DNA from: Candidatus Manganitrophaceae bacterium
GTDB taxonomy: Bacteria; Nitrospirota; Nitrospiria; SBBL01; Manganitrophaceae
Reading direction: 5' to 3'
NCBI GenBank assembly: GCA_016200325.1
Contig: JACQEZ010000007.1
Span: forward strand, 248,001 to 312,000
Length of the DNA: 64,000 bases
Positions 16,822 through 52,011 of this stretch are shown piece by piece. How positions within the stretch are numbered: position 1 is the first letter of the stretch; each line of letters begins with the position of its first letter. Below the pieces are notes generated by a model that saw only the letters and a list, made by a program, of their open reading frames with translations, was not told the origin of the DNA and made no database searches. The translations under genes and the position numbers were made by a program.

Positions 16822-17349
16822 TTGATTGCCTTCTTTTTCTTTTCAGCTTGTAACAGCCCTTCTCCTCCCCCCGCTCCGAAAGAAACGCCAAAACAAACAC
16901 CGGCTCCTGTAAAGGCGGCTCACACAGATGCAAGTGAGATTTCTGCAGAGAGACTGGCATTAGTCGGAAAAGTTCTGGTTTTCGGAACCGAAGATCCTGA
17001 TTTTGGAAGTGGAGGGGTTCCGATCGGAAAAGCACAGTGTCCGCTCTGCCATATGTTTTTGCCCGAACAACGTGCTGACCGCGCACCGGTTTTGGTCGGA
17101 CTGGAGGTGCGCTCTCACGACCGGGTCAAGGAGGAGCGGTATAAGATGTTTGCAGCGCGGCTTGCAACGGGAGACCCCAATTCAGGGATCACGCCGCAAG
17201 CGCATACGGGCGGCGAATATATCCTCAAGGATGAGGCCGCTGCCGTGCGAGACGGTTTGGACCGCACCCCGGATGAGAAGGAGGGGGTCTTCTGCAAAGT
17301 TCAGGTCAGACCGTACCGAGCCGTTAGAGGGCCGGTTACTTCTCGCTGA
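16822..17349 (+). CDS. Monoheme c-type cytochrome lipoprotein with apparently frameshifted start
   Basis: The frame encodes a proline-rich linker after a lipobox-like FFFFSAC, then one haem c site (CPLCH) and about 100 residues of unknown fold, including a Met two residues after the haem His. The only in-frame start is a TTG at 16822, which leaves just nine residues before the lipobox Cys, too few for a signal peptide. A better start is the ATG at 16787, preceded by GGAG, but it runs out of frame at a run of six T (16818-16823). One more T would join them into a normal lipoprotein signal (MPARLPPAGPIF then LIAFFFFSAC). The 3' end overlaps the convergent PilZ gene. Confidence 0.75.
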   Translation: MIAFFFFSACNSPSPPPAPKETPKQTPAPVKAAHTDASEISAERLALVGKVLVFGTEDPDFGSGGVPIGKAQCPLCHMFLPEQRADRAPVLVGLEVRSHDRVKEERYKMFAARLATGDPNSGITPQAHTGGEYILKDEAAAVRDGLDRTPDEKEGVFCKVQVRPYRAVRGPVTSR

Positions 17350-18264: not shown

Positions 18265-19467
18265 TCAGAAGGCGAAGACAAGACCGAGCAGCGCGGTATC
18301 GGTCTTTTCCGGGTGAGCATCGGACACTTTTTTAAAGTCGTGGGTGTACTCCAAAAAAGCTTTCATGTTTCTCCGGAAATAATGGGTCAGGTTGACCGTT
18401 CCCAGACGCTTTCCGACAGCGGCGCGATCTTTTGAGGAGACGTCGTTGTAGAGGAGAATCCCGGTCCAGTCGGAATTGAAATGATAATCAAGTTCGACAA
18501 ATCCTCCCGACAACCGGGCCCGCTCAGCCGGAACGAGGAAGTCGGGATTGGCCTCTCTACCGAAGAGCCATTGAGAGCGAAGATCGAGCCCTTTAATCCA
18601 ATTTCGGATTCTGAGGTCCGGACCATAGCGGGTAATCGTATTGTCGAGGCGGGTCGTCTCTTCTCTTTCCCTTCCCAAATAACCGAAGAGGCCGGCCGTG
18701 ACCGGCCCGGCGGAAAATCCCAGCCTCCCGAAGATGTCCTTGGGGCTGTTGTTATCGAAATTTCCGTTTTGATCTTGGCGACCGATCCCATTCCCATTCA
18801 CCGCCCCCAGCACAAAATCAACGGGGCCATACCCGTATGAGAGGGTCGCTCCCCGTTGGTAGGTCAATTCGAAATTGCTTTTACTGACGTGGGTCACGTA
18901 AATCTCAATGTCTTGGAAGGTCAACCGCTGCTCGCGTGAGTAGACCGGATCCATCACCTGGAATTGCCCGATCTGAAGATAGGAGTCGGTTCCACCGAGA
19001 TGACTGAGGTAAAGAAAGGCATCCTCCATCCCGACCACCTCTCCCCCTTCTCCCGCCAAGAAATAAGAGTAGAAGGTGATATCCTTTGCCAAGTAGCCGA
19101 TGATGAAGAGCTTGACCAAAAACGGCGACTCGATATCACTGTGAACGGAGGTGTCGGCACGATAACGAAGATAGCTGTCGACACGAACCGCCAGATTGAG
19201 ATTTTTTTCGAGACTGAGATTGGAGTCGCCGAACGACTGCGATTGGGTGGTGACATCGCCCCCCGGCATTTGATAGCCGTTTTTCGCGAAGGCTTCTCCG
19301 AACGGATTGAGCTTCGGGAAACCGGCATGACACATCACGCATGAGAAGCCGAACTTGCGGGCGAATCCAGGATTGGCCGACGCCGAAGGAGGGTTCGGCA
19401 ATAATAATAGAAGGGAGATCAGAAGGAGAGAAAAAAAACTGACGAGAACGGCAGCGGATCGCGACAT
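18265..19467 (-). CDS. Cyc2-like fused outer-membrane cytochrome-porin
   Basis: A 400-residue outer-membrane protein. A signal peptide (about 1-31) leads into a single haem c site, CVMCH at 43-47, set in PGFARKFGFSC and then FPKLNPFGEAFAKNGY, the arrangement that marks Cyc2-type iron-oxidising cytochromes. The remaining 330 residues alternate polar and aromatic residues as transmembrane beta-strands do, and the chain ends in Phe, typical of barrels inserted by BAM. Known Cyc2 proteins pass electrons from extracellular Fe(II) through a porin. Here the donor is unknown; Fe(II) or Mn(II) is possible. A haem-containing porin of unrelated role is the alternative. Confidence 0.8.
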   Translation of the reverse strand: MSRSAAVLVSFFSLLLISLLLLLPNPPSASANPGFARKFGFSCVMCHAGFPKLNPFGEAFAKNGYQMPGGDVTTQSQSFGDSNLSLEKNLNLAVRVDSYLRYRADTSVHSDIESPFLVKLFIIGYLAKDITFYSYFLAGEGGEVVGMEDAFLYLSHLGGTDSYLQIGQFQVMDPVYSREQRLTFQDIEIYVTHVSKSNFELTYQRGATLSYGYGPVDFVLGAVNGNGIGRQDQNGNFDNNSPKDIFGRLGFSAGPVTAGLFGYLGREREETTRLDNTITRYGPDLRIRNWIKGLDLRSQWLFGREANPDFLVPAERARLSGGFVELDYHFNSDWTGILLYNDVSSKDRAAVGKRLGTVNLTHYFRRNMKAFLEYTHDFKKVSDAHPEKTDTALLGLVFAF

Positions 19468-50940: not shown

Positions 50941-52011
50941 CTACTCCGGTAGCTTCGGCGGGGTGATCTTGAGCGGCTCACCGGTGAGGGCCTTGAGAAA
51001 TTCGACCAGATCTTTTTTGTCTTGGTCGCTCAGAAGGCTCAAGGGGGTGATCAACGGGTGACGGGGGGCGGTCGTCGGCTCCGCCTTCACATAGAATTCG
51101 ACCACCTCTTCCAGGGTTGCGAACTTTCCGTCGTGCATGTAAGGGGCGCTCTGTGCGACGCTGCGGAGGGTCGGTGTCTTGAACTGTTCCCGGTGGTCAT
51201 CATTTTGCGTGACGGCATACCGTCCCGGATCGATGGCGACCCCGGGCCTCCTCTGAAATCCCAACGCATGGAATTGATTGTCTGTAAAATTGGGGCCGTT
51301 GTGGCAGGTGACGCATTTGGCCTTTTCGTTGAAGATCCGGAGGCCGTGCAGCGCGGTCGGGGTGAGTGCGTTGTCGTCGCCCGCCATGTAGCGGTCAAAG
51401 GGGGAGTTGTTCGAAAGGATCGTCCGCTCAAACGACGCGATCGCCTGCGCGATCCCGTCGGCGGTCACGCCGGTTCCGAAAACGCTCCGAAAAGCGGCGA
51501 CATATCCCGGAACCGCGTTGAGTTTCTGTGTGAGGTGGTCTAACTCCTCTCCCATCTCGATCGGGTTTTGAATCGGTCCGAGCGCCTGCTCTTCGAGCGA
51601 TCCGGCGCGGCCATCCCAAAACTGAAATTTATTATAGGCGGCGTTGAAAATCGTCGGAGCGTTCCGGGCGCCGCGTTGCCCGCGAATGCCGGTTGCGACC
51701 GGCTGGCCGTTCGAGAATCCCAGCTCGGGGTTGTGGCAAGAAGCGCAGGAGAGGGTGTTGTCGCGAGAGAGCCGCGGATCGAAGAAGAGCACTTTTCCAA
51801 GCGCCACCTTGGCCGGCGTTTGCAAGTTGTAGGGAGGGATCGGAGGCGCCAGAAGGGGATGGAGGTTGAAGGGGGGATTGGGAAGGGTATCGAAGAGGGT
51901 CTCCGGCGGATATTTGTCGCTCTTCTTGGGGCGGGCATGGAGCGGTCCTTCCGATCCCAAAAAGAGAAATAAAAAAGCAATTAATCCGAAGAGCATCCAG
52001 CGGCGTTTCAT
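50941..52011 (-). CDS. Diheme cytochrome c peroxidase/MauG family protein
   Basis: A 356-residue periplasmic protein with a signal peptide (about 1-26) and two haem c sites, CASCH (89-93) and CVTCH (233-237). RNAPTIFNAAYNKFQFWDGR between them and SAPYMHDGKFATLEEVVEFY near the end are family hallmarks. Such enzymes reduce H2O2 or oxidise protein side chains. It stands alone between convergently and divergently placed genes. Peroxidase and MauG-like roles cannot be told apart here. Confidence 0.93.
   Translation of the reverse strand: MKRRWMLFGLIAFLFLFLGSEGPLHARPKKSDKYPPETLFDTLPNPPFNLHPLLAPPIPPYNLQTPAKVALGKVLFFDPRLSRDNTLSCASCHNPELGFSNGQPVATGIRGQRGARNAPTIFNAAYNKFQFWDGRAGSLEEQALGPIQNPIEMGEELDHLTQKLNAVPGYVAAFRSVFGTGVTADGIAQAIASFERTILSNNSPFDRYMAGDDNALTPTALHGLRIFNEKAKCVTCHNGPNFTDNQFHALGFQRRPGVAIDPGRYAVTQNDDHREQFKTPTLRSVAQSAPYMHDGKFATLEEVVEFYVKAEPTTAPRHPLITPLSLLSDQDKKDLVEFLKALTGEPLKITPPKLPE

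Follow-up and report, generated by a model that had tools for sequence, protein, structure and literature searches.

Could the protein encoded at a single locus bring electrons across the outer membrane of a bacterium whose genus is presumed to oxidise manganese? The question is raised by an ORF in a 64,000-nucleotide stretch of contig JACQEZ010000007.1 (the window), for which an original prediction proposed a Cyc2-like cytochrome-porin and candidate extracellular metal oxidase. For Ca. Manganitrophaceae, Cyc2 has been hypothesised to belong to the core gene set behind Mn(II) lithotrophy (PMC9040806).

Gene and motifs

The ORF occupies exactly the interval that had been proposed and lies on the minus strand, which had been left unstated (Table 1); the plus strand of the same interval holds 7 stops. 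Judging by its relatives, there is no doubt that it is a genuine gene. As described in the original prediction, a CVMCH site directly follows the signal peptide in a Cyc2 context, and the barrel region ends in Phe. The signal peptide was called by inspection, from a basic n-region, a long Leu run and an AxA motif, and the haem context that follows it reads ANPGFARKFGFSCVMCHAGFPKLNPFGEAFAKNGY. A bare CxxCH is by itself little evidence in this genome, with 4 in the window compared with 1.5 in random windows, and 204 in the whole genome compared with 84 for the reversed pattern. For the joint motif A.P.FAR.{5}C..CH.{3}P.L, the window has a single occurrence and 40 random windows have none.

Table 1. 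Features of the Cyc2-like gene and its predicted protein, in window coordinates.
Feature	Position	Strand	Details	Basis
Cyc2-like cytochrome-porin CDS	18265..19467	minus	400 aa plus stop, ATG start	
Predicted signal peptide	19375..19467	minus	residues 1-31, A-S-A cleavage site (A29-S30-A31)	sequence inspection
Cyc2 signature region	19351..19377	minus	A31-N-P-G-F-A-R-K-F39	sequence compared with published consensus AXPXFAR[Q/K][T/Y]
Haem c site CVMCH	19327..19341	minus	residues 43-47	sequence
PXL motif	19309..19317	minus	P51-K-L53, 4 residues past CXXCH	sequence
Predicted mature haem domain	19201..19374	minus	residues 32-89, short helices modelled with moderate to low confidence	AlphaFold2
Predicted 16-strand porin barrel	18268..19200	minus	residues 90-400, C-terminal AF	AlphaFold2 and Foldseek
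Predicted long loop after strand 5	18862..18957	minus	residues 171-202, where classical porins have L3	model and clade alignment

Predicted fold

An AlphaFold2 model of the mature protein from A31, computed with 21 relatives, has a pLDDT of 82.5 and a pTM of 0.83. Sixteen long strands follow a helical N-terminal domain, with one long loop past strand 5 as in classical porins, while the first 58 residues form short helices modelled with moderate confidence, part of them below 50. A Foldseek search with the model gave 291 PDB matches at E<=0.001, with OmpU, OmpF and OmpC at the top and OprP at E 2.1e-11; TM scores to the 16-strand porins matched (OmpU, OmpF, OmpC, OmpK36 and OprP) were 0.54-0.64. 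OprP/OprO is also the structural match published for Mariprofundus Cyc2. A control AlphaFold2 fold of a cluster-1-like Cyc2 protein, L017, was too poor for comparison (pLDDT 53, pTM 0.57).

The model depicts a porin barrel of 16 strands and classical topology with a haem domain fused to it; a haem domain outside an ordinary porin, the arrangement that had been named beforehand as speaking against a Cyc2-like identity, was looked for and not seen. By this topology, the N-terminal haem domain would face the periplasm and lie at the pore mouth or within it. Within the long loop, residues R178, E179, R181, L182, T183 and D186 are invariant in the aligned clade of relatives described below, and the same alignment holds no invariant His or Met beyond CxMCH and the start Met, and so offers no conserved candidate for the distal haem ligand.

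Relationship to Cyc2 proteins

The published description of Cyc2 (Keffer et al., 2021) comprises a signal peptide, a single CXXCH, an AXPXFAR[Q/K][T/Y] signature, a PXL motif, a length of at least 365 aa and a 16-strand porin. In the window protein the single CXXCH follows the AxA site of a signal peptide identified by inspection, PXL stands 4 residues downstream (CVMCH-AGF-PKL), the length of 400 aa exceeds the published floor of 365, and the model and its PDB matches point to a 16-strand outer-membrane porin. The exception is the signature, where ANPGFARKF fits every specified position but the last, which is F instead of T/Y; ANPGFARRF, ANPGFARRY and ANPVFAKRF are found as variants within its clade. 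The original remark that the barrel is shorter than in most Cyc2 proteins is borne out for length, which is at the short end, but not for strand number, as 16 modelled strands would give the barrel its full Cyc2 count.

Profile comparisons aligned the protein over nearly its full length both with the Cyc2-like proteins of congeners, which carry AIPAFAR motifs (324 columns, E 8e-24), and with Nitrospira-type Cyc2-like proteins from elsewhere in the Nitrospiria (358 columns, E 6.6e-28). Alignment with two cluster-1-like Cyc2 proteins, a class assigned by reading the motif only, was limited to the haem end and the first strands. Identity to other Cyc2-like proteins is about 20-28%, and no experimentally tested member is close. 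Pfam and NCBIfam profiles gave no match to the protein, and neither did a PDB sequence search with the single protein or a search of plasmids; the plasmid search with L017 returned short cytochrome C matches only. A maximum-likelihood tree built from 42 proteins puts the window protein in a clade of 8 that is supported at 100/100 and whose stem measures 1.15 changes per column. The deeper position of this clade is unsure because the program warns of long branches meeting.

Taken together, the shared features (all but one of those published), the near full-length alignment with Cyc2-like proteins of Nitrospirota and the tree place the protein among the Cyc2-like cytochrome-porins in the broad sense. 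The original identification is upheld in this form by fold and relatives alike, the search having returned Cyc2-type proteins and not an unrelated outer-membrane protein family without Cyc2 members. The protein appears to be a divergent member of an already known Cyc2-like kind, with a function that is predicted only. A strict filter on the published Cyc2 motif would miss the ANPGFAR-type clade.

Several known systems bear comparison. With Cyc2 of neutrophilic Fe(II) oxidisers (cluster 1, Mariprofundus PV-1; PMC8406198) the protein shares the signal peptide, single CXXCH, FAR motif, PXL and predicted 16-strand porin, whereas with the cluster-1-like proteins of Nitrospirota only the haem end aligns, the window protein having F for T/Y and one residue fewer from CXXCH to P.L than their CHFQHYPAL. 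The AIPAFAR-type proteins of congeners (L024/L026, L041 and L012), from the same phylum, are homologous over nearly the whole length, but they are only about 24% identical, form a separate clade with a long stem and lie at another locus. The AIPAFARKY proteins of Nitrospira and relatives have the same haem context and near full-length profile homology, yet they are longer (about 450-480 aa), form a separate clade and occur more widely in the class. A cluster 3 protein of the same phylum, Leptospirillum Cyt572, is by description a haem c fused to a barrel for which Fe(II) oxidation has been shown, and differs in its reported unusual haem and long branch. The MtrAB/MtoAB and PCC porin-cytochromes likewise transfer electrons across the outer membrane, but they pair a separate multihaem cytochrome with a larger barrel, unlike the fused single-haem arrangement predicted here.

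Distribution of the clade

The closest relative, with 82% identity, comes from a congener and lies on a contig titled Candidatus Manganitrophaceae, in keeping with the connection to Manganitrophus that had been drawn originally. This congener was the sole match in a scan of genome contigs with the protein. Relatives in five genomes of other families have about 50-57% identity (E 5e-117 or better), and a sixth was found by profile at E 5.7e-138. Full-length clade members are present in 8 of the 270 genomes of the class (G000, G003, G021, G022, G023, G026, G036 and G265), a count that leaves out G014, whose protein (E 2e-43) is a distant relative outside the clade. Members from one family group together in the tree, which would fit vertical descent with losses, with horizontal gain as the alternative. 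CHFQHYP Cyc2-like proteins that are cluster-1-like by motif (L017 and L035:10861-12327) also occur in the class, and G026 carries one of these and a member of the window clade about 3 kb apart.

Two of the six genomes of the genus have the clade gene. G002, G004 and G005 keep the flanking genes but lack the clade gene. Between the rhodanese and outer-membrane protein genes of G001 (72% complete), WD40-like repeats fill the slot; equal neighbour spacing had raised suspicion of a frameshifted copy there, which was rejected on finding these repeats. The interval at 17.7-19.5 kb of the window (L086, L087-L089) is a variable slot between conserved genes, occupied by the Cyc2-like gene, by WD40-like repeats or by neither.

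Genomic neighbourhood

The Cyc2-like gene stands alone, with a convergent rhodanese gene on one side and, on the other, a divergently oriented gene whose product is a small outer-membrane barrel protein. Outside the genus, the window neighbours do not recur beside clade members, save for a remote histidine-kinase-like match, and no conserved electron-transfer neighbours of the clade gene were found.

A possible link with the haem lipoprotein encoded at 16822 had also been suggested. This ORF (16822-17349, plus strand) has a lipobox-like start and aligns with two parts of a 408-aa di-haem cytochrome, residues 39-149 followed by residues 345-378. It has thus lost the central part that bears the second haem site, and its first haem domain runs directly into the C-terminal tail. 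A longer paralogue is encoded at C14:28516, and 234 of the 270 class genomes hold matches. The two genes lie on opposite strands with two unrelated genes between them and no conserved neighbourhood; an operon was rejected, the suggested link is not supported, and the internally deleted paralogue seems a poor candidate partner for the Cyc2-like protein. Elsewhere in the window, a 356-aa ORF with two CxxCH motifs (50941-52011, minus strand) resembles a di-haem cytochrome c peroxidase of the MauG type.

Other candidate extracellular electron-transfer genes in the genome

A profile of 17 Cyc2-like proteins found no further credible member in the genome, which is 99.4% complete. At the locus of the Cyc2-like gene of G002 (L026), which is likely the published 'Cyc2' of Manganitrophus, both flanks are kept in the window's genome around a gap of about 160 bases, compared with about 1,480 in G002. 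Because both flanks surround this short gap, the congeners' type is cleanly absent and not lost in assembly. In G004 the Cyc2-like gene (L041:7348-8795) is present as two separate ORFs, a break that reflects either decay or a sequencing error in the assembly.

Among the matches listed, the genome also contains a dense cluster of multihaem ORFs at C1:274-286 kb (L092), in which a 1015-aa protein with 11 CxxCH motifs lies near a 664-aa protein that has no Pfam match. The 1015-aa protein is present at 84-85% identity across all six genomes of the family. A porin-dodecahaem complex, PCC_1, has been published as common to Ca. Manganitrophaceae and proposed for Mn(II) oxidation, and we infer that the 1015-aa protein may correspond to it.

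Discussion

We consider it probable that the window gene encodes an outer-membrane Cyc2-type cytochrome-porin that takes up electrons from a soluble donor, for which Fe(II) is the leading candidate. In this process, a small soluble reduced donor would enter the pore from the exterior and reduce the haem at its periplasmic mouth by one electron, which would then move on to a periplasmic carrier. Fe(II) is the likeliest donor because, in the literature that we found, no other substrate has been shown for a Cyc2 protein, and the functionally tested proteins, one per cluster, all oxidise Fe(II). Counting against this reading are the protein's distance from tested members, its F for T/Y, its patchy presence in the genus (2 of 6 genomes), the absence of conserved electron-transfer neighbours, the lack of an invariant candidate for the distal haem ligand and the alignment with cluster-1-like proteins over the haem end and first strands only. 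A role as a metal oxidase is something that we only infer.

A further reservation is that the function of cluster 3 Cyc2 homologues has been called 'most uncertain' by the authors who described them, and FeGenie treats the cluster as indicating probable iron oxidation and possible iron reduction. Such homologues are present in Geobacter and other iron reducers, Cyc2 homologues are found in nitrifying Nitrospira, and AIPAFARKY relatives are abundant in Nitrospiria; these occurrences, and the conserved loop residues on the predicted outward-facing side, would suit a cytochrome-porin that exports electrons, or a haem-gated pore, with no role in metal oxidation. We regard such a role as unlikely, given that Fe(II) oxidation is what every tested Cyc2 protein performs.

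It also seems quite improbable that a protein of the same architecture accepts electrons from Mn(II) or Mn(III) and stands in for the Cyc2 that has been put forward as part of Mn(II) lithotrophy in Ca. Manganitrophaceae. The genome shares its genus with the contig bearing that family's name, Cyc2 is a published candidate for Mn(II) oxidation in the family, and the divergent protein is present where the congeners' type is missing and the conserved multihaem cytochrome is retained. However, the clade is also found in six genomes of other families and so is not tied to this lineage, and the well-sampled G002, G004 and G005 have the multihaem protein without the clade gene. The one measured Cyc2 potential that we met in print, about 208 mV, seems low for Mn(II) oxidation, as judged from Mn couples. 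Mn(II) oxidation by this protein is thus possible but unsupported, the association being genomic only, and we give little credence to the more specific proposal that the clade is an alternative Cyc2 replacing the usual type in a manganese-oxidising lineage, with electrons drawn from soluble manganese species. An ordinary porin with a vestigial haem motif, as the matches to classical porins and the patchy, accessory nature of the gene might suggest, is very hard to reconcile with the retention of the haem motif and its context in 8 of 8 clade members, which are about 50% identical overall and have the haem domain among their most conserved regions.

In this species the Cyc2-like gene is the sole one of its type and occurs together with a separate multihaem-cytochrome cluster, which resembles the type proposed to oxidise Mn(II). 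A near-complete genome that lacks the congeners' Cyc2-like type and holds the divergent one only, with three congeners that lack the divergent one, makes the claim that Cyc2 is core to the family's Mn(II) lithotrophy directly testable in culture.
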